DNA of 20,084 nucleotides. Origin: a virus. The notes under the pieces are model-generated. The model was not told where the DNA came from. It saw only the letters and a list, made by a program, of their open reading frames with translations, and did no database searches. The translations under genes were made by a program, and so were the position numbers. How positions within the stretch are numbered: position 1 is the stretch's first letter; the number at the start of each line of letters is the position of its first letter. The DNA is taken from positions 1 through 20,084 of IMG/VR virus record IMGVR_UViG_3300043775_002447; one strand, 5' to 3'. Below are positions 4,970 through 20,084 of this stretch, one piece after another.

Positions 4970-6769
4970 TTATCCCTCACAGGCAATACAATCATTACCT
5001 TCAGCGAGGGCTGTCATATCAAGTTCTTTAATTACATCACGTTCAATTCTCTTGGAAACCTTATCAGCCTTTGCCAATTTTTCTGAACGGCAGTAATATA
5101 ATGTTTTCACACCTTTCTTCCATGCTAAGAAGTGAATAGCATGTATATATTTCAGATGAGAATCTGGTCGGAAGAATACGTTTAGTGATTGTGCTTGGTC
5201 AATGTAAACTTGACGGTCTGCGGCATGTTCAATCACCCAACGTTGGTCGATTTCCATAGAAGTCTTAAACACGGCTTTTGTGTCCTCGTCCATCCAATCA
5301 AGGTGTTGTACAGAACCATCATTAGCAATAATTGAAGACCAAATATCAGCATATTTTCCAGAATCCATTCCATCTTCTAGTGACAGATGTTTTCTGATTA
5401 CTCTATCGAGCCAACGATTCTTATTTAAAAATGAGCCAGATAAAGTGTCCTGACGGTAAGCGTTAGCACGATAAGGCTCAATGCTAGGGCTAGTATTTCC
5501 CATAATGATAGACGAAGAAGCATTTGGAGCAATAGCCATAAGATGACTGAAACGCTGGCCACTACCCGTAGCATCGGGTGCTTCACCGCGTTCAGTACCG
5601 AGTTGAAGATTTGCTTCATCTAGTTTACCTCTGATATGTTTGAAAATCTTATTGTTTAATACTTTTGCCATTACACCTTCAAATGCTACATTGTTCTTTT
5701 GGAGAAAAGCATGAAAGCCGAGAGCGCCAACACCGATGCTCCGTTCACGGCTAGCACTATATCTTGCACGTGATATGCTATCAGGAGCATTATCAATGAA
5801 ATATTGAAGGACGTTATCGAGCATCTCTGCAATGTCCCGAAGAAATAATTCGTTATCTTTCCAATCATCATAATACTCCAAATTTACGGACGATAAGCAA
5901 CATACAGCAGTTCGTTCTTCATTAGTAGGAAGAATAATCTCCGAGCAAAGATTTGATTGGTGTACTTTCAGACCTTTATCTTTTAAGAATTGTGGAAGTC
6001 CACGATTGCTTGTATCAATGTAATGAATGTATGGTTCACCTGTATGCATACGGAGTTCGAGAATTTGTTGCCACAGATGTTTAGCAGACACAACTTCACG
6101 CACTTCACCTGAATGTGGATCTTTTAGTTCCCAAGCATCATTCGCTTCTGGATCAACCATACACTTTTCAATGATTCGCATGAAATCATCGGTGATATTG
6201 ATACCATGATGCAGATTCAAACAACGGACGTTTGGATCACCCGTTGGTTTACGCATCTCTAAAAAGGGAATAAGGTCAGGATGACTAATATCAAGGTAGG
6301 CAGCATAAGAGCCACGGCGAGTGCGTCCTTGACGATACGCAAGACTAGAGGCATCGTAAATCTTGAGGTGAGGCATAACGCCAGTACTCTTATCATCCGC
6401 AGAGCGTATCCCAAAGCCGATGCCAACACCGCCGCCAAACATAGACAGCCAATTAGTTTCAGAAAGATTATCAACTAGACCCTCCGCAGTATCTTCAACA
6501 TAGTTAAGAAAGCATGAAATAGGTAGCCCACGCTTAGAACGGCCGTAGCTAAGAATAGGAGTGCTATAGCTAAGCCAATGATTAGAGGCGTAATTATACA
6601 AACGCTGGGAATGCTCCGGATTAGAGCCAAAAGACGTTGATACATATGCAAACCTCTGTTGTGGTGATGTTTCATCATCACGCATGTACGATTCTTTTAA
6701 TCGTTTAATACCCAATTCATCAAATAGTTTATCTTTTTCCAAGTCTATTGTGATACCCATATATTCCAT
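4970..6769 (-). CDS. nrdA: class I ribonucleoside-diphosphate reductase, alpha subunit, ATP-cone-less
   Basis: This is the catalytic subunit, 599 residues. The ten-stranded barrel landmarks are present: redox Cys C86 (ISCFLN), the N-x-C-x-E active-site trio N273, C275, E277 (SNLCSEI), the partner redox Cys C290 (AVCCLSSVNL), the radical-relay tyrosines Y558/Y559 (TLYYCR), and a C-terminal Cys pair C594/C597 (DCIACEG) for reduction by thioredoxin. The first redox Cys is at ~86 instead of 225 as in E. coli. The N-terminal ATP cone and part of the helical domain are therefore missing, and dATP inhibition through a cone cannot occur. A longer in-frame reading to 6817 exists, but the ATG at 6769 has AAGGA six bases upstream and lies just after the MazG stop, so I take 6769. 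Confidence 0.96.
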   Translation of the reverse strand: MEYMGITIDLEKDKLFDELGIKRLKESYMRDDETSPQQRFAYVSTSFGSNPEHSQRLYNYASNHWLSYSTPILSYGRSKRGLPISCFLNYVEDTAEGLVDNLSETNWLSMFGGGVGIGFGIRSADDKSTGVMPHLKIYDASSLAYRQGRTRRGSYAAYLDISHPDLIPFLEMRKPTGDPNVRCLNLHHGINITDDFMRIIEKCMVDPEANDAWELKDPHSGEVREVVSAKHLWQQILELRMHTGEPYIHYIDTSNRGLPQFLKDKGLKVHQSNLCSEIILPTNEERTAVCCLSSVNLEYYDDWKDNELFLRDIAEMLDNVLQYFIDNAPDSISRARYSASRERSIGVGALGFHAFLQKNNVAFEGVMAKVLNNKIFKHIRGKLDEANLQLGTERGEAPDATGSGQRFSHLMAIAPNASSSIIMGNTSPSIEPYRANAYRQDTLSGSFLNKNRWLDRVIRKHLSLEDGMDSGKYADIWSSIIANDGSVQHLDWMDEDTKAVFKTSMEIDQRWVIEHAADRQVYIDQAQSLNVFFRPDSHLKYIHAIHFLAWKKGVKTLYYCRSEKLAKADKVSKRIERDVIKELDMTALAEGNDCIACEG

Positions 6770-11763: not shown

Positions 11764-11946
11764 TTACATCTTTGGTGATTTACGTGTAAGTGTGGTCATA
11801 AGAACTACACGTTTTTTCTTTTTCAGATTAACACCTGGTTCTCCACCCTTTTCACCTGTGCCTGCAATAGCACCTGTACTTACAGCATTACCTGGTCCCG
11901 TGGAAACTGCACCACCATCTTCTCTTAATTTTTTGAACGATTTCAT
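11764..11946 (-). CDS. 60-aa Gly/Thr/Lys-rich peptide with capsid-targeting-like leader
   Basis: The N-terminus MKSFKKLREDGG has the M-K-x-F/Y start and a Leu-x-Glu triplet at residues 7-9, like the leader of T4 internal proteins (cleaved by the gp21 prohead protease after Leu/Ile-x-Glu). The rest is low complexity: repeated AVSTG-like units around residues 13-27, a Gly/Glu/Pro stretch and a basic patch LKKKKRVV. Similar tiny proteins occur near lysis and head genes in T4-like marine phages, by my recollection. It starts in an ATGA overlap. It may be an internal capsid peptide; no function is known. Confidence 0.65.
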   Translation of the reverse strand: MKSFKKLREDGGAVSTGPGNAVSTGAIAGTGEKGGEPGVNLKKKKRVVLMTTLTRKSPKM

Positions 11947-12943: not shown

Positions 12944-12951
12944 TATTTATT
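12944..12951 (-). promoter_or_regulatory. possible T4-type late promoter box
   Basis: On the minus strand the octamer AATAAATA matches the T4 late consensus TATAAATA at seven of eight bases. It overlaps the stop codon of the 732-aa gene and lies about 33 bases before the ATG of the structural gene at 12911, a plausible distance. AT-rich DNA produces such octamers by chance, so this rests mainly on position. Confidence 0.35.
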
Positions 12952-15145
12952 GTTTCTGTGAATTAGGTCTGGTCTTAAGAACAGGCTCAATCTCTACTGT
13001 ATCACGGGGCTGACCCGTCATGGTTGTTCCGCCTTGCAAAACAACTTTGGCTGTAGGTGTTTTACCACCTTTGTCAGTTTTTTCCCAATCATACATGCTT
13101 TCATTTTTACCCTTCTTTTTATAGATGGATTTAATGATACGTGCAGATTTCATATTCTTTTTGCGGTGCTCTGATTCCATTGCTTTAACAGAATTTGTTG
13201 CTGATAGGGGTGAGTCTTCGATACCACCAATGCCTTCTTGTACAACATCTTCAGAGACAGACTTCCAGCCACCACCTTTGGATTTATACCATTTTGACGC
13301 CCAACCATTTGCATATGCTGATGGGTAAACATCAAACTTAGAACGAGCCATTGATTTTGCTCTTGACCAAAGTGCAGGATTTGTTGGACTATTTTTTTCG
13401 TCCATTTGTTCTGCTTCTTCATTTTTAGGTCTGCAATCTGGAACCATCTTACCACCCTTCATTTTCATGCCGACTTGTTTGTGTGTATCCCAACATGCTT
13501 CATCAACTTCTTCTTCACTGAGTTTACCTTTGCCGTAATTTGATACATTTATTGGCTTACCACCCTTGCCTGCACGGTCTGCAACTGGATCATGTCTGCG
13601 TTTAGTTGCGACTGCGGCCGCTCGTTCACTCTTACTGAGTTCAGCACGTTTTTCTTTTGACATACATTTTGGTTTTGGTTCACCAGGTTCTCTGGCACAA
13701 GGACCTGCTACTTCACCTTTTGAGTTGATTCTTTTCCAATCACCTTCAGGATCAGTTTTGCTAAACCATTTACGTAAATCTTCACGTGTGAGGTGGCTAT
13801 CAAGTTCTTGGTTGTCATCTTGTTTCTTCAATTCAGCCAAAGGTTTTTCTGCTTGTTTGCGAATTGCTTTTGTGACACCACCGATAGCTTTAATGCTTTT
13901 GAGTGTACCTTTTGGTGTTACACCACGTGATGGGCCTGTGGAAACTTTATCAACATAAGATTTCAATGTAGAAGTTTTGAGTTCTTGTAGGGGTTCACCT
14001 TCAACTTCCACGGAATCTCCGACATAACGTCCACTACCAGCAGATTTGTAATATGCTCCAGGTGAACTCATGTCAACCTTTTTCTCTGGTTCAGACTTCA
14101 CTGGCGGATACATTTTCTTATATGCTTTTTTGATACCCTTATCTAATTTAGCCTGTTTAGCAGGAGATGCTGTAGGAAATTTCTTATGACCAGCAGACAT
14201 GTATGAATGTAACGTACCTTTTGAAAGTTCATCTAAAACTTCTTCGTCCAGTTCTTTTGTAGATTTCAAATAATCTAAAGAAGTTGTGATATAATCTTCT
14301 GCTTTTGTTATTTTGGATTGGACCCACTCTGGAAGATTTTCATCATCTTCTAGCATATTTTTAATATCTTCTGCATTTCTACAAATGGTTTGTAATAGAG
14401 TTTTAGCCATTGAACCTTCATAATCATATTCACCAGCATCTTTACTTTCTTTTAATTTTCCAGTAATAGAATCATAGTGTTCCATAGTTAACGGAACATC
14501 GTGGCGCATATCAATTAAACGTTCAACAACTTTGTGTAGTTCTACATCTGTCTTGACATCTTCACGGATGAATTCTAGTACACGAATAAGCAAAGGAATG
14601 TCCATGCTAACTGTATCTTTTACATCCGCTTCTTCTTTGACAGATTTCTTTTCTTCGTTCCAATCATCACCACGTTCGCCCATGCCTGATATTTCTTTCA
14701 CGTGTCTATTTTTAAACAATCTAAATTCTGAAGAACGTGAATATGATTTCTTTTGGTTTCCATCCATCGATAGTGGATTTAAACCTTTAGCCTTGATGAA
14801 AGACATTAGAAGACCAGTACCAGCTTCGTCTAATTCTTCAACATCTTCAGTTCTCAACTGGTCATTCATGTGAGAAATTTTATAGTTCTTAAATGCATTT
14901 GAACGTGCATATTTTGAACGTGAAGCAAAGTCCATCTGTTCTGGATTATAACCAAGTGAACGAATATACTTAAACAACAATGGATCAGATTCGTCTAACT
15001 GTTCGGCTTCCTCTTTGACTGGTTGTGCATATTTTGCAGACCAAGGCTCCATTGGATCCTCATATGGTGAATCACCAAGTTTGCCCATAACAGACTCTTT
15101 CTTGGCCTTCAACATATCCTTGATTAATTTACCAGCTTTGCTCAT
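12947..15145 (-). CDS. large modular Lys/Glu-rich head-associated protein, 732 aa
   Basis: The protein is a string of short modules joined by acidic linkers. Residues 49-95 and 104-150 are diverged tandem copies (E-x-LDE, then LLFKYIRSLGYNPEQMD versus LLMSFIKAKGLNPLSMD, then a Ser/Arg/Lys-Phe helix). Residues 239-295 (YDYEGSMAKTLLQ, EWVQSKITKAEDYI) match a helix pair common in head-core proteins of marine T4-like phages. LSKGTLHSYM (307-316) and LKTSTLKSYV (389-398) are another repeated motif. Residues 455-530 (RKWFSKTDPEGDWKRIN, GPCAREPGEPKPKCMS) resemble DUF5872, followed by EACWDTHKQVGMK (549-561) and PSAYANGWASKWYKSKGG (608-625). Several Leu-Asp-Glu triplets (50-52, 105-107, 299-301, 304-306) sit at module edges and resemble gp21 protease sites. 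A scaffold or internal-virion role is inferred. Confidence 0.8.
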   Translation of the reverse strand: MSKAGKLIKDMLKAKKESVMGKLGDSPYEDPMEPWSAKYAQPVKEEAEQLDESDPLLFKYIRSLGYNPEQMDFASRSKYARSNAFKNYKISHMNDQLRTEDVEELDEAGTGLLMSFIKAKGLNPLSMDGNQKKSYSRSSEFRLFKNRHVKEISGMGERGDDWNEEKKSVKEEADVKDTVSMDIPLLIRVLEFIREDVKTDVELHKVVERLIDMRHDVPLTMEHYDSITGKLKESKDAGEYDYEGSMAKTLLQTICRNAEDIKNMLEDDENLPEWVQSKITKAEDYITTSLDYLKSTKELDEEVLDELSKGTLHSYMSAGHKKFPTASPAKQAKLDKGIKKAYKKMYPPVKSEPEKKVDMSSPGAYYKSAGSGRYVGDSVEVEGEPLQELKTSTLKSYVDKVSTGPSRGVTPKGTLKSIKAIGGVTKAIRKQAEKPLAELKKQDDNQELDSHLTREDLRKWFSKTDPEGDWKRINSKGEVAGPCAREPGEPKPKCMSKEKRAELSKSERAAAVATKRRHDPVADRAGKGGKPINVSNYGKGKLSEEEVDEACWDTHKQVGMKMKGGKMVPDCRPKNEEAEQMDEKNSPTNPALWSRAKSMARSKFDVYPSAYANGWASKWYKSKGGGWKSVSEDVVQEGIGGIEDSPLSATNSVKAMESEHRKKNMKSARIIKSIYKKKGKNESMYDWEKTDKGGKTPTAKVVLQGGTTMTGQPRDTVEIEPVLKTRPNSQKQ

Positions 15146-15148
15146 TGC

Positions 15149-15799
15149 TTAGTCCTTTTTAGCGGCCTTTGTGGCAGTTGCATACATCACTTCTTTGGCT
15201 CTTTCACCGTAACGTGATTTGAAACCAGCAAGAGATTTTTTCATACCTTTAACGATACGTTCTTTTTCAGCAGTCTCACCTTTAGTTAGTGTGCGTTCGT
15301 CAACTTGTTCAACTTCTTCTTCGTTAACATTAAGTTTAACTTTAGCTTTTAAGAATGGATTAGCTGACTTGCCAGCAACTCTACCTGTTAAGGTGTCTGT
15401 TGTTGTGACGCTTGGATCAATTTCTTCTTTTTTAGTCATCTTCTTCTCAAGGTCACCCAAGTCTTTATCTTTAGGACCTTTGACAATTGCAAAAGGATCA
15501 GCCATAGAATCACGATGTGTCTTTGCGGCATTACCATAACGGTGGCCTAAAACTCTTGTACCGGTTGAAGTAGGAATTTTAACACTTGTGTCTGCTTCTT
15601 CAACTTGTTCTTCATTGACTTTCTTTTCGCCACGGAGAAGTTTGAAGTCGTGAGCATCAATTTTGTTGTTCTTATTTTTATCAATCTTGTGTTGATTGCC
15701 CTTGAGTGCTTCCATCTTAGCCTTATAATCGGCTTCGTTGATACCTTTGATGAGGTCAGCAACAACATCGGTTTGGGTGAATACGTTTTTGTTGAACAT
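15149..15799 (-). CDS. Lys/Glu-rich head-associated protein with EF-hand-like loop, 216 aa
   Basis: Residues 40-52 (DKNKNNKIDAHDF) have the spacing of an EF-hand calcium loop: D40, N42, N44, Ile at position 8, and D51 at position 12. Only one such loop is present. The C-terminal ~45 residues (TAEKERIVKGMKKSLAGFK, then RYGERAKEVMYATATKAAKK) are a basic helical block that recurs in unassigned head-region proteins of marine T4-like phages. Acidic linkers (EEQVEEAD, EVEQVDE) join the parts as in the 732-aa neighbour. I20-N21-E22 and similar triplets could be prohead-protease sites. GGAG is six bases before the ATG. It is probably a minor scaffold or internal head protein. Confidence 0.75.
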   Translation of the reverse strand: MFNKNVFTQTDVVADLIKGINEADYKAKMEALKGNQHKIDKNKNNKIDAHDFKLLRGEKKVNEEQVEEADTSVKIPTSTGTRVLGHRYGNAAKTHRDSMADPFAIVKGPKDKDLGDLEKKMTKKEEIDPSVTTTDTLTGRVAGKSANPFLKAKVKLNVNEEEVEQVDERTLTKGETAEKERIVKGMKKSLAGFKSRYGERAKEVMYATATKAAKKD

Positions 15800-15816: not shown

Positions 15817-16110
15817 TTAGCAGTTCCATTTGCGTAGTGATAATGCTTTTCTAGTTGGTCTACCTTTTTCGTCCTTCATAGGACCTGGCATTCCACCCAT
15901 TCTAGCACAGAATGATTTTCTTCTTTTAGCCGCTTTACTTCCAGGTTTTAATTTGGAAGGTGGTGTTGTCACAGCCATCGAAAGTTTTGAACCTGGGTTT
16001 TCTCTGCGATAAGAAGCAATACCTTTACGGTTCAAACCACCTTCGGGGTTCTTACCTTCTTTGCGTTTCCATGCCGCAGATTCATCTAAAAATTGTTTAA
16101 ATTTTAACAT
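15817..16110 (-). CDS. DUF6321 family basic protein with capsid-targeting-like leader, 97 aa
   Basis: After the leader MLKFKQFLDE (Leu-Asp-Glu at 8-10) the protein is the compact basic DUF6321-type domain: AAWKRKEGKNPEGGLNRKG, ASYRRENPGSKLSMAVTTPP, a Lys/Arg-rich stretch around residues 55-66, then FCARMGGMPGPMKDEKGRP and the C-terminal LRKWNC. It is strongly positively charged and has two Cys (C68, C97). Such a protein is likely to bind nucleic acid; packaging with the phage DNA would fit, but this is an inference. It overlaps the nucleotidyltransferase gene by 14 bases and has AAGAAG before the ATG. Confidence 0.85.
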   Translation of the reverse strand: MLKFKQFLDESAAWKRKEGKNPEGGLNRKGIASYRRENPGSKLSMAVTTPPSKLKPGSKAAKRRKSFCARMGGMPGPMKDEKGRPTRKALSLRKWNC

Positions 16111-17971
16111 TTTTTTTCTTCTTAGGATTAACAGGTATCTTATTCAGAGTATCCATTGGTTCTTTATTTGATGGTCCATGATACCCACCGGTGACTCCCA
16201 TTTCTGTACTAGGAGAATCAATTGATTCTTTTCTAAACTTATTGAAAGATTTGCGTGTCACCTCTGCGGTACTGGTATATTTATGCTCACTTTGTTCTTT
16301 AAAGTTTACATTACTTAGACCAGCCATTGGATAAACTGTACCTTGACCACGTGTATCATACTCAGGAGAAACACCGGCCGCTTTGATTACTTTGCCGCTT
16401 TCGGCGTTTGAGGCTTTTTGCTTCTTGGATTTTTGTTTGTCGTTGTCTTGTTGGAAACGGAGTTCTTTGTCGGCGCCTCTGACTGTGACGGTTGGCTCAC
16501 TGCTTTCGTAGGTTCTGAAGGTGTAACCGGAGTTTGAGGTAATTCCTCCATCTTTAATGTCGTCTGGCTTACCTTGTCTTCTGACGAGTTCACAGCTTGG
16601 ACAGATGTTGTCGGTGAAGAGGCTTCTTTTGGTGCTTCCGCAGGAGCAGGAGCCTGCTTTGGCATTAGAAGACTTGCTAGTTGTTTTATTTTCTGTAACA
16701 TATTTTTTGTATCCCTTTTCTGATGTAGGTTTAGTTATAAAGTTTTCAAACATCTTGTTGATGTTGTGTTTCTTGTGCCTTGTCAACCACGACTCAGCGA
16801 TTTCATTATCAACGGGAGTATCGAAAAACCAATTTGTCATTTCATAAATGATTGAAATGTCTTCTTCTTTTTCCGATGTTTCAAACTCATTTGCTTCATT
16901 CAAATCAACTGAATTATCGAATTCCAAATACTTCTTAAATTCTTGATTGAACTTCTCTGCAACTAACTGTGTGACTTCCCAACGTTCTTTGCGAACGGAT
17001 TCAGCCATCATTCTTTCGTGTCCTTCGTTTCTCTTTCTTGAAGATTCATCCGAAGTGTTTACAAAAACCATCATTGTTTCGTAACCAAGTTCTTCCAACT
17101 CCTCACGAATCGTCAGAATATTATATTGTTCGTTTGTTGTGCCTGTGATAACCAAAGGTTGCCTTTGACGCAATGCTTCACGGCGGGTATCACGTGAATA
17201 CTCATAGAGTTTGTGTTTGTCATTCAACAATGAGATTGCTGTTGTTGAGGTGATTTCTATGGCATTTTGCTGTGCAATTGCTTCACGGATGATAATGTCT
17301 TTGCCAGAGCCTGGACCACCAGATATGAAAATGGCTTTAAACATTCCATGATTAGCACTTTCATGTATTCCCATTCCACTTCTAACATCACGGAACAATT
17401 CTTTTGCATGTTTCTCTGTAACGTGGGCAGGAACACCTTGTCTAAAAGAATGAAAATCATTGTTTTGTGCATGTTCACGCATTTTAGATGCTGACATACC
17501 TTCTGCACCTTCGGCATCAGGATCACGATGACCAGCAGACTTAACTTCTATCTTTTTGAAATTATATAATGCACCGGCATGTGTTCCATTATATTGTTGA
17601 AGTTTCTTTTCATATTCTGGAATTCGATCAGATCCGGCAACCATAATTAAATGGTCGTGTCCCATTTGATTCAATCTGGCGGCATGTTGCAAAAATGTTG
17701 GTTGCTCTTTACTCGATGCTTCAATATTAGCACCAGGAAAGAATCTTTTTGCATGAAGTAACTTCTTTTTAATTTCAAGTGGATTCTTCTTAGCATCCAC
17801 AGAATGTGATATCACAATATGATGTGGTGCATTATAATCGTGTGCAATTTGTTGAACACGATTGACCAATTTTTCGTGACCAATAGTAGGAGGATTCATA
17901 CGACCAAAAGCCATTACCACAGGCTTATGTGTCTGAGTATCTTCTTCTATTTTTTGTAAAAACTTTTTCAT
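16097..17971 (-). CDS. nucleotidyltransferase - P-loop kinase - zinc-ribbon fusion protein, 624 aa
   Basis: Counting from a GTG three codons upstream (17980), residues 20-200 form a cytidylyltransferase/NMN-adenylyltransferase-like Rossmann domain: VVMAFGRMNPPTIGHEKLV with the TIGH nucleotide-binding motif (32-35), HLIMVAGSDR, and SASKMRE (163-169) in place of the ISSTxxR motif. Residues ~214-350 are a P-loop domain: AIFISGGPGSGKD (Walker A, 221-228), then VITGTTNEQYN and a VFVNTSDESSRKRN lid-like Arg stretch. A zinc ribbon follows (C445, C447, C460, C463). The last ~130 residues are low-complexity and Lys/Ser-rich, like other head-cluster proteins. The preferred ATG at 17971 gives the leader MKKFLQKIEED with an Ile-Glu-Glu triplet. 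NadR-like NAD synthesis or nucleic-acid end processing are both possible. Confidence 0.82.
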   Translation of the reverse strand: MKKFLQKIEEDTQTHKPVVMAFGRMNPPTIGHEKLVNRVQQIAHDYNAPHHIVISHSVDAKKNPLEIKKKLLHAKRFFPGANIEASSKEQPTFLQHAARLNQMGHDHLIMVAGSDRIPEYEKKLQQYNGTHAGALYNFKKIEVKSAGHRDPDAEGAEGMSASKMREHAQNNDFHSFRQGVPAHVTEKHAKELFRDVRSGMGIHESANHGMFKAIFISGGPGSGKDIIIREAIAQQNAIEITSTTAISLLNDKHKLYEYSRDTRREALRQRQPLVITGTTNEQYNILTIREELEELGYETMMVFVNTSDESSRKRNEGHERMMAESVRKERWEVTQLVAEKFNQEFKKYLEFDNSVDLNEANEFETSEKEEDISIIYEMTNWFFDTPVDNEIAESWLTRHKKHNINKMFENFITKPTSEKGYKKYVTENKTTSKSSNAKAGSCSCGSTKRSLFTDNICPSCELVRRQGKPDDIKDGGITSNSGYTFRTYESSEPTVTVRGADKELRFQQDNDKQKSKKQKASNAESGKVIKAAGVSPEYDTRGQGTVYPMAGLSNVNFKEQSEHKYTSTAEVTRKSFNKFRKESIDSPSTEMGVTGGYHGPSNKEPMDTLNKIPVNPKKKKNVKI

Positions 17972-17972
17972 T

Positions 17973-18578
17973 TTAATCACCAGATGTTTGGCCTGAACCT
18001 TTCACGGAACTCATTGGATCACTTTCGGAACTAAATTTGATTGCATGGCGACCAAATGTTTTATTCTTGTATTTAAAATGTATTGATGATCCACTATGAT
18101 GTACGCTGATATTGCGTGAATCATTATAAATGTGGTTGTGGTGTGTGCCCGGATTCATAGAACTATGTTGCTGACCATTTTTGTTGGTATATGAAACATG
18201 TCTAATGTGCTTGTGTCCCTCTTTTTCCATTGGAGTGCTTTTCGAATGTAGCACATGTTTTATATGATGTACTAATTCTGATTTTGGAATAGTGGATAAG
18301 TGGTGGTGCAAATCTTTGGCAATTTTATGCAATGTTTCTTGATTTTTTTGTTTCACATGCGCCTGCATTGAAGGATTTGCTTTCATCATACCTTTGCGCT
18401 CGTCACGATTAGAAGCCTTTTTCAATTCTGGATATTTTTTCAGAATTGATGTTCTATGTGCTTCTAGATGTTTTTTTGCATTTGGTCCAGCATATTCAAT
18501 TCCAGGATTTGATGTTGGAACATGTTTGGATGATGAATCGGTGACTTTAAGACTAATACCGTGGTGTATAACTTGCAT
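17973..18578 (-). CDS. C-terminal half of a split putative nuclease-like protein, 201 aa
   Basis: The protein opens with VIHHGISLKVTDSSSKHVPTSNPGIE. In related phage proteins, as I recall them, this continues directly from the block that ends the upstream gene (QKEDASDIVI). The rest is His/Lys-rich: RTSILKKYPELKKASN, KANPSMQAHVKQKNQETLHKIAK, and a C-terminal beta part (SIHFKYKNKTFGRHAIKFSS). ISLKVTD could be the strand carrying the Ser-x-Lys form of a PD-(D/E)xK active site. The frame is +1 relative to the upstream gene. The ATG at 18578 has GAGG seven bases upstream, so independent translation is likely. Confidence 0.72.
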   Translation of the reverse strand: MQVIHHGISLKVTDSSSKHVPTSNPGIEYAGPNAKKHLEAHRTSILKKYPELKKASNRDERKGMMKANPSMQAHVKQKNQETLHKIAKDLHHHLSTIPKSELVHHIKHVLHSKSTPMEKEGHKHIRHVSYTNKNGQQHSSMNPGTHHNHIYNDSRNISVHHSGSSIHFKYKNKTFGRHAIKFSSESDPMSSVKGSGQTSGD

Positions 18579-18585
18579 ATATGCC

Positions 18586-19098
18586 TCACTTCTTATGTGT
18601 TGTTATAACAATATCGGAAGCATCTTCTTTTTGAGTCGAATGTATTCCGGTTGAACGGTGAATGTCTCCAGGTTTTGAAGTCCAATGAACATCATGTATT
18701 TTATGTCCGTTCGTTTCAACTTGTTTTCTTATGTCATTTGCGGCGCTTTTGGCCCGAATATTCATTTTTTTATAGTCATTTATATGAACTTTTGCTTTTA
18801 ATTTATCATGCGCTTGTTTTGGTGTATCACCAACCTTATCGGGATGTTTTGACATGTGTTTACCGCCGTTGAGATGGTAACCAACCAATAGTTCATGCAA
18901 TTTACCTTTAGTGTCGGATTTTACTTTACCTTCGACAGGTTCAGCAGGTTCAGCCTTTTCTTCATTTAATTCAAAAAATTCATCATACTCCTCATCTTCA
19001 CAAGTTTCAGAATCATATGATTCTTCCATAACTTCTAAAGAATTTAAATAAAGACTTATTTCATCTTGTTCTGTGCTAAAATTTTTAAATGATTTCAT
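18586..19098 (-). CDS. N-terminal half of a split putative nuclease-like protein with capsid-targeting-like leader, 170 aa
   Basis: The start at 19098 gives the leader MKSFKNFSTEQDE. GAGGA lies about ten bases upstream, just after the preceding stop; the frame is open further back but only through the upstream gene. Residues ~28-60 are highly acidic (Glu/Asp/Pro linker). The domain begins at KGKLHELLVGYHLNGGKHM and runs to GHKIHDVHWTSKPGDIHRSTG and TQKEDASDIVITTHKK, where a TGA ends it. The Asp of ASDIVI would be the first acidic residue of a PD-(D/E)xK-like core whose Lys strand lies in the next gene. The fold is an inference. Two adjacent frames covering one apparent domain mean gene fission, a programmed +1 shift or a sequence error. 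Confidence 0.72.
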   Translation of the reverse strand: MKSFKNFSTEQDEISLYLNSLEVMEESYDSETCEDEEYDEFFELNEEKAEPAEPVEGKVKSDTKGKLHELLVGYHLNGGKHMSKHPDKVGDTPKQAHDKLKAKVHINDYKKMNIRAKSAANDIRKQVETNGHKIHDVHWTSKPGDIHRSTGIHSTQKEDASDIVITTHKK

Positions 19099-19114: not shown

Positions 19115-20084
19115 TTAAATATTCCTAATTCCTGCAAAGTTTCTGCGGGAGAATTCTGCACGATTAACAAACTTGTCTGATTCTTTTCCATGGTGAAAAA
19201 CATATCCTTCAGGATTAGCATTTTCACCCGCATGTGTGTGTTGAAATTCTTGATGTTGATTCATCACATTAATTAATACATTTTTTGCCTTCTGCAAATG
19301 CTGGTGCATTTTGAATAGGTTATTGTAGTGTTTTCTGTTTCTATCAATTTTACCCAACTCATCCTTCAATTCGGATTGTTTTGCAGTTCTATTCTTTTCA
19401 ACCTTCAGCTTATCAATTTCTTTATTCTTTTTGGTTTCTAACCATTTGCTGAAATTTTGGTGATTTGGTGTTTCACCAGTACGAACAGTGTGGTTCATAT
19501 ATGTTTCTAGGTGACCACCAACACCGTGATGTGCCTTAGTACCAGCATACATGTCATCACCATGGGTATCATGTACGGCTTGTGCGGCAGAAATGTGTTT
19601 GTTGAATTCAGCACGGTCTTTAGGACCAAAATGTACCTTTGAAGTATCCATTCTTGGGTCGACCGAGAATACATCTGGATGTTGATTAAAGTTTTCGTGG
19701 TCAACTTCATGGTTTGCATTTAAACTGTTTGAATCTTTACCTGAATATGAAAGATGTGTCACAACACCGATCTTAGCTTTCTTAACTGTGGAGGCATGTG
19801 TTCCATGTGCAGTATATGTTAAACCGGATGGATTAGGATGAAAAGATACTCCACCACCTTTAGCGGGTGTCTTATCATCTTGTGAGAACATCATGTCACC
19901 CTGATAGACACCTTTCTCTGGTGCACCTTTTGGTAGATGTTTCAATGCATCTTTTAATTTGCTAACTAAACCTGGTGCGTGTCCGTGATTCTTTTCAATG
20001 TCAGCATTTGTGTAATTAATCTTTGGTGTCTTATTAAATGCAGATTTTGAAGCAACGAAAAACTTACCATTTTCTGGATGATGA
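19115..20084 (-). CDS. DUF6267-like, possibly ligase-like, head-module protein; N-terminus beyond window edge
   Basis: The frame is open to the window edge, giving 322 visible residues without the true start. Blocks in order: NGKFFVASKSAF (5-16), INYTNADIEKNHGHAPGLVSKL (22-43), KHLPKGAPEKGVYQGDMMF (48-66), VSFHPNPSGLTYTA, and AKIGVVTHLSYSG. These match my recollection of DUF6267-type proteins of marine phages. Full-length members carry a KWDG-like motif just upstream of GKFFV, reminiscent of covalent nucleotidyltransferases (DNA/RNA ligases); here that part is outside the window. The second half is a His/Lys/Asn-rich coiled-coil-like region. Gene order links it to the split nuclease and the nucleotidyltransferase fusion. 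The ligase-like role is inference. Confidence 0.75.
   Translation of the reverse strand, partial: HHPENGKFFVASKSAFNKTPKINYTNADIEKNHGHAPGLVSKLKDALKHLPKGAPEKGVYQGDMMFSQDDKTPAKGGGVSFHPNPSGLTYTAHGTHASTVKKAKIGVVTHLSYSGKDSNSLNANHEVDHENFNQHPDVFSVDPRMDTSKVHFGPKDRAEFNKHISAAQAVHDTHGDDMYAGTKAHHGVGGHLETYMNHTVRTGETPNHQNFSKWLETKKNKEIDKLKVEKNRTAKQSELKDELGKIDRNRKHYNNLFKMHQHLQKAKNVLINVMNQHQEFQHTHAGENANPEGYVFHHGKESDKFVNRAEFSRRNFAGIRNI

Follow-up and report, generated by a model that had tools for sequence, protein, structure and literature searches.

Why does a conserved phage protein appear as two reading frames, one ending a few bases before the next begins, and do the two pieces still make one protein? The question is raised by the window, a stretch of 20,084 nucleotides that constitutes a 20-kb IMG/VR fragment of an uncultured T4-like phage. 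A sequence-only reading had noticed two frames in a +1 relation, a stop and a following ATG; all of these are present in the window, on the minus strand, which that reading had left unstated. The upstream frame (chain A) ends with ...QKEDASDIVITTHKK and then TGA, and the ATG of the downstream frame (chain B) occupies 18578-18576. Between the stop and this ATG there are 7 intervening bases; the "eight bases on" of that reading is a count from the last base of the chain A stop. Frame B is open for 8 codons above its ATG and overlaps frame A by 14 coding bases and the stop, in agreement with the approximately 17 bases proposed. The GAGG noted ahead of the second ATG lies 5 bases before it (local sequence GTGAGGCATATATG). 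The longest ORF starts at 19233, but the start of chain A was placed at 19098, behind an SD (Shine-Dalgarno)-like GAGG, since this is where homologues begin. The features of the split gene are as follows.

18589..19098, minus strand: chain A, 170 aa, MKSFKNF...DIVITTHKK, supported by relatives and by dN/dS of 0.03-0.2 between split relatives
18892-18894, minus strand: codon of chain A Glu69 (in HELLVGYHL)
18613-18615, minus strand: codon of chain A Asp162
18586..18588, minus strand: TGA stop of chain A, with the same junction in L001-L005, L007, L010 and L012
18584..18587, minus strand: GAGG, the Shine-Dalgarno-like site for chain B, overlapping the chain A stop codon
17976..18578, minus strand: chain B, 201 aa, MQVIHHGISLKVTD..., in the +1 frame relative to A
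18552-18554 and 18546-18548, minus strand: Ser and Lys codons of the predicted Ser9-Leu10-Lys11 of chain B
17973-17975, minus strand: the stop of chain B itself

Chain A consists of an N-terminal tag-like peptide, an acidic linker, a helix with HELLVGYHL and a strand from Asp162, while chain B is predicted to supply Ser9-Leu10-Lys11 plus the remainder of the fold. Both chains are conserved proteins with dozens of relatives each.

Is one chain or two the rule in this family? Relatives were collected from IMG/VR using each half and alignments of split forms. One continuous frame was found in 58 of the 75 distinct junctions holding both halves, and a split in the other 17. In most relatives the protein is a fused single chain of ~330-450 residues, the halves cover a fused homologue end to end, and homologues of ~60% identity run through the same place as one chain, which bears out the suggestion that A and B read as one domain. 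Thus, the relatives are mostly one gene, and not always separate genes of unrelated fold. Every split sits in the same linker, between SDIV(V/I)TT and HHGISLK, and the halves are 1-11 nt apart with nothing between them, neither a mobile element nor an insert. All three relative frames are used.

Frame 0, gap of 9 bases: L011, L022
Frame +1, gap of 1, 7 or 10 bases: the window group, L006 (with which L010 and L012 were grouped), L023/L024, L025, L110
Frame +2, gap of 8 or 11 bases: L093, L105, L106, L108, L109, L113

The window junction is identical in five other contigs whose chain B is 100% identical, and it is also found in most of the 90%-identical relatives. One fused homologue (L051:3738-5093, 452 aa) has an extra N-terminal stretch with TLAHELVHRKQ, a motif resembling the HExxH of metallopeptidases.

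What would the two chains form together? A close fused form (L087, 376 aa) was modelled with AlphaFold2 on a 35-sequence alignment, giving a pLDDT of 91.3 and a pTM of 0.85. The predicted elements run H105-126, E132-138, E162-169, E175-186, H208-222/244-271 and E298-307, the order of the PD-(D/E)xK core (a helix, three strands, a helix and a strand), and the strands with the Asp and the x-x-Lys are adjacent. Strands 162-169 and 175-186 flank the break, which falls in the turn of a beta-hairpin. All of the 35 fused sequences have Glu68 and Asp161, while Ser183 and Lys185 are conserved in at least 90%; Asp161 opens the first of the two strands and Ser183-x-Lys185 lies inside the second. The equivalents in the window are Glu69 and Asp162 of chain A and Ser9 and Lys11 of chain B. 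Since the Glu and the Asp are on A and the Ser-x-Lys is on B, the putative active site is divided between the chains. In a Foldseek search of the PDB with the L087 model, the top three matches were to MspI and HinP1I, type II restriction endonucleases of the PD-(D/E)xK kind (probabilities 0.89, 0.90 and 0.63), and the next match had a probability of 0.13. The E-values were only 6e-3 to 5e-2 and the whole-chain TM-scores 0.24-0.40. As in the fused model, adjacent strands of MspI and HinP1I carry the Asp and the x-x-Lys in the same order. HinP1I acts as a monomer with one catalytic site (PMC4081073). On the other hand, these enzymes have no detectable sequence similarity to the phage protein, which in some phages builds its fold from two chains and alongside which no partner methylase was seen. 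The proposal that the break separates the Asp strand from the Ser-x-Lys strand of a PD-(D/E)xK-like core is thus backed by the conservation, the predicted model and these matches. As the model is a prediction and the scores are modest, I hold this assignment at moderate strength, as support at the level of the fold and not as proof; the protein may act like a PD-(D/E)xK nuclease, and its membership of the superfamily is less than certain.

Many families of the PD-(D/E)xK superfamily have been joined to it by fold alone. Searches of Pfam, PHROGs and the PDB sequences gave no convincing match for either half or for any of the 35 fused homologues, and no sequence-level match to any known nuclease was found. 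No relative was found among 50,697 annotated phage records with the halves and the fused homologues as queries, nor in a scan of genome contigs, and the best viral models matched by the fused form are uncharacterised proteins. This nuclease-like family, carried by uncultured T4-like phages, thus appears to be unnamed in Pfam and PHROGs and would be an addition to the families known.

Could the protein be a binding or structural head protein on a PD-(D/E)xK-like scaffold, in which a split would be harmless? The modest fold scores and the missing relative of known activity would agree with this, as would the virion-associated look of the neighbourhood. In addition, the position before x-Lys is Ser where PD-(D/E)xK proteins have (D/E), so that the third motif is Ser-x-Lys and not Glu-x-Lys, a variation. 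Against it, the conserved residues are those that a PD-(D/E)xK active site would need, in the right order and in the right elements. I consider a non-nuclease role unlikely, with a real chance of being correct.

How is chain B translated? Of 10 distinct split junctions, 9 have a correctly placed SD 4-mer and the tenth has GAG; for 3571 internal ATGs taken from these loci the rate is 7.0% (binomial P about 4e-10). This excess supports the separate translation that the GAGG had suggested. In many split junctions the SD incorporates the stop codon (TAAGGAG, TAGGA, GTGAGG), which fits termination followed by an immediate re-start. A programmed +1 frameshift at AAG-TGA, yielding a fused A-B protein, would also be compatible with the window, since the second frame is in +1 there, in the L006/L010/L012 group and in L023/L024, L025 and L110, and a single chain can work, as is seen from the fused homologues. 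However, the other splits would need frame 0 (stop read-through) or +2, so that no single recoding event serves all of them, and no slippery motif is common to the junction sequences. Moreover, every split form has a start codon and nearly all have an SD, whereas an ATG with an SD occurs at the break point in 1 of 57 fused genes. A frameshift is therefore very unlikely. The single fused gene is L067, where an SD-like AAGG and an ATG stand precisely at the position of the break, near 5408-5421; it is a possible intermediate with an internal start.

Gene splitting is often the first step in decay. Might the two frames be a decaying pseudogene or an inactive remnant? No result here points that way. 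Comparison of split relatives gives a dN/dS of about 0.03-0.23 in each half, even near saturation of the silent sites; therefore, the gene is not decaying, and both halves are under strong purifying selection. The predicted catalytic residues are invariant in all eight split pairs compared. I regard decay as extremely improbable. Finally, a base lost or gained in a single gene by assembly or sequencing error can give such a picture, and is almost certainly the wrong explanation, as the junction is identical in the five contigs with a 100% identical chain B and recurs in further 90%-identical groups, split relatives of different sequence have in-frame stops for which no one error accounts, and neither an SD site nor an ATG would be gained through an error. 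Taken together, the recurrence of the split in varied frames, the SD sites, the selection and the identical junctions rule out assembly error, decay and a conserved +1 frameshift. Thus, among the three options offered by the sequence-only reading, the two-chain protein is supported, while the +1 frameshift falls with the use of frames 0, +1 and +2, and the assembly error with the recurrence of the junction.

The locus quite probably represents a gene of T4-like phages that has been split naturally and encodes a nuclease-like protein of the PD-(D/E)xK type, made as two chains by coupled translation. According to this explanation, the ancestral chain would have been cut in the turn of the beta-hairpin formed by the catalytic Asp strand and the Ser-x-Lys strand. 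Chains A and B would be made from one message by coupled translation: ribosomes would end chain A and re-start immediately on chain B from the stop-overlapping Shine-Dalgarno site, so that the halves are made together. By completing the hairpin, the chains may then form a single folded domain in which A provides the Glu and the Asp and B the Lys, and the assembled domain would cut nucleic acid with a metal ion.

In a tree of 74 proteins, five changes between the split and fused states are required under strongly supported branches. The tree fits repeated splitting as well as a single split followed by re-fusions or gene exchange. Split enzymes are already known in T4-like phages, namely Aeh1 nrdA/mobE, gene 43A/43B of phages 25 and 44RR, and topoisomerase 39/60 of T4; the Aeh1 NrdA was reported to be fully functional, and the polymerase halves of phage 25 co-purify with activity (PMC2988022). 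As in those cases, one ancestral chain is now two polypeptides from adjacent genes. However, the T4-like split enzymes are usually tied to a mobile element or insert (PMC2988022), while here there is no homing endonuclease or untranslated insert, the SD overlaps the stop, and the break recurs across lineages with different junctions. The locus may thus provide a natural example, in several lineages, of a putative active site shared by two co-translated chains without a mobile element, and it should be useful for studying why phage genes split and re-join.

What do the neighbouring genes and the N-termini indicate? The genes on both sides of the split gene are on the same strand.

19118..20083, minus strand: DUF6267 (PF19782, E 1.2e-72), the upstream neighbour, partial at the window edge
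16100..17980, minus strand: cytidylyltransferase (phrog_3041, phrog_395) with an AAA/kinase-like domain, the downstream neighbour
15820..16110, minus strand: a 97-aa protein, MLKFKQFLDESAAWKRKEGK..., with a clear capsid-targeting-like N-terminus (FLDE|S)
11764-11946 and, in the cytidylyltransferase, 16100-17968, minus strand: further leader-like N-termini

Of 74 loci with the nuclease-like gene, 67 also have DUF6267, in nearly all cases close to it and on the same strand, and 56 have the cytidylyltransferase. A leader-like motif, M-x-x-F-x-x-F/Y-L/I-x-E, was found on 96 of 645 genes of the region against 2 expected from shuffled N-termini, a statistic tied to an ad hoc regular expression and to a simple rule for start codons; the 8 of 35 nuclease-like family members scored positive are too low a count, as the expression missed many. 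The leader is common to proteins without similarity past residue 25: DUF6267, the nuclease-like protein, the cytidylyltransferase, HAD-like proteins and small basic proteins, a number of independent families that is inexact because clustering of the N-termini merged DUF6267 with the cytidylyltransferase. The carriers span loci L001-L139 and 111-119.7 kb of G001 (L145-L150). In this 121-kb relative with the same split (L010/G001), real-looking leaders are confined to that cassette; among its about 123 genes there are three further matches, which look spurious (Fisher P 4e-5). The leaders are predicted to be disordered, with pLDDT <50 at residues 1-11 and 1-20 in two models.

In T4, the leader directs proteins into the head and gp21 cuts after L/I-x-E (PMC9026906). 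The T4 IPIII leader MKTYQEFIAE (X04567) resembles MKTYKHFIVEQ of the L006 chain A, MKSFKSFLNEE of the fused L080 protein and MLKFKQFLDES in the window, all with aromatic positions 4 and 7 and often with L/I-x-E. Many fused relatives fit the leader and the cut site fully. Chain A of the window has the two aromatic positions as in T4 and departs from the T4 internal head proteins at positions 8-10, where it has S-T-E and not L/I-x-E, and chain B has no leader. About a third of the relatives use another leader, MSIQ..IYLERAGLLxE; in the form M.SIQ..IYLERAGLLxE(A/S) it was seen on many nuclease-like homologues (L032, L034, L035, L037 and others) and also on an unrelated 145-aa protein in L037. A gp21-type prohead protease (PF03420) is encoded in five long contigs of related phages, those of L010, L052, L119, L080 and L088. 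From these sequence features, a virion-packaged enzyme is plausible: the N-terminal peptide of chain A would bring both chains into the head, chain B as a passenger, and they would be delivered along with the genome.

Purified virions of several cyanophages contain the cytidylyltransferase T4-GC190 (PMC3037559) or NMNAT-like proteins (PMC10665884, PMC9602691), with a warning from the authors of these virion proteomes about possible carry-over in purification (PMC10665884, PMC9602691, PMC3037559). In cyanophages the same kind of gene adjoins DUF6267 (P-HM2 T4-GC71, T4-GC190), while those with virion cytidylyltransferase or NMNAT-like proteins have no detectable nuclease-like homologue. The shared leader peptides suggest why cytidylyltransferases recur in cyanophage virion proteomes, and the leader may serve as a sequence rule for predicting what such phages bring into the cell. 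One may go further and speculate that the nuclease is packaged in two pieces, in which A alone has the capsid-targeting leader and B joins by closing the catalytic hairpin, that the separation of the Asp and the Lys would keep the enzyme inactive in the producing cell until it assembles within the head or is delivered to the next host, and that it would be delivered with a ligase-like DUF6267 protein and the cytidylyltransferase. As a joint claim this is rather doubtful, and I offer it tentatively.

Several minor observations concern the neighbours. DUF6267 has an invariant K-x-D-G in KYDGSPS (full copy at L001:3268-4461); KxDG is motif I of DNA/RNA ligases and capping enzymes. The PDB matches of its predicted model are enriched in ligases, none of them significant; DUF6267 is probably a nucleotidyltransferase-fold protein. 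The two neighbours may be fused in some phages, since a single profile of 764 positions, phrog_455, covers DUF6267 at 74-334 and the cytidylyltransferase protein at 418-676. In HTVC008M (L151:3914-4969) and Melnitz (L152:4923-6005), a leader-bearing protein adjoins DUF6267 and has a PD-(D/E)xK-like motif, WTS...PKTD..IGN..(I/F)SLK..AAQLMSGG. The DUF6267-adjacent genes of HTVC008M, Melnitz, P-HM2, C48C1 and DLP6 were considered as remote homologues and rejected, as no profile match was obtained and the N-terminal leader alone matched when they were aligned with the nuclease-like protein by hhalign. Further along the minus strand of the window, two proteins (12947-15145 and 15149-15799) contain many repeats of an L/V-D-E-A/S-like site (EELDEA, EQLDES, EEVDEA), which hints at head core or scaffold proteins with numerous cleavage points.
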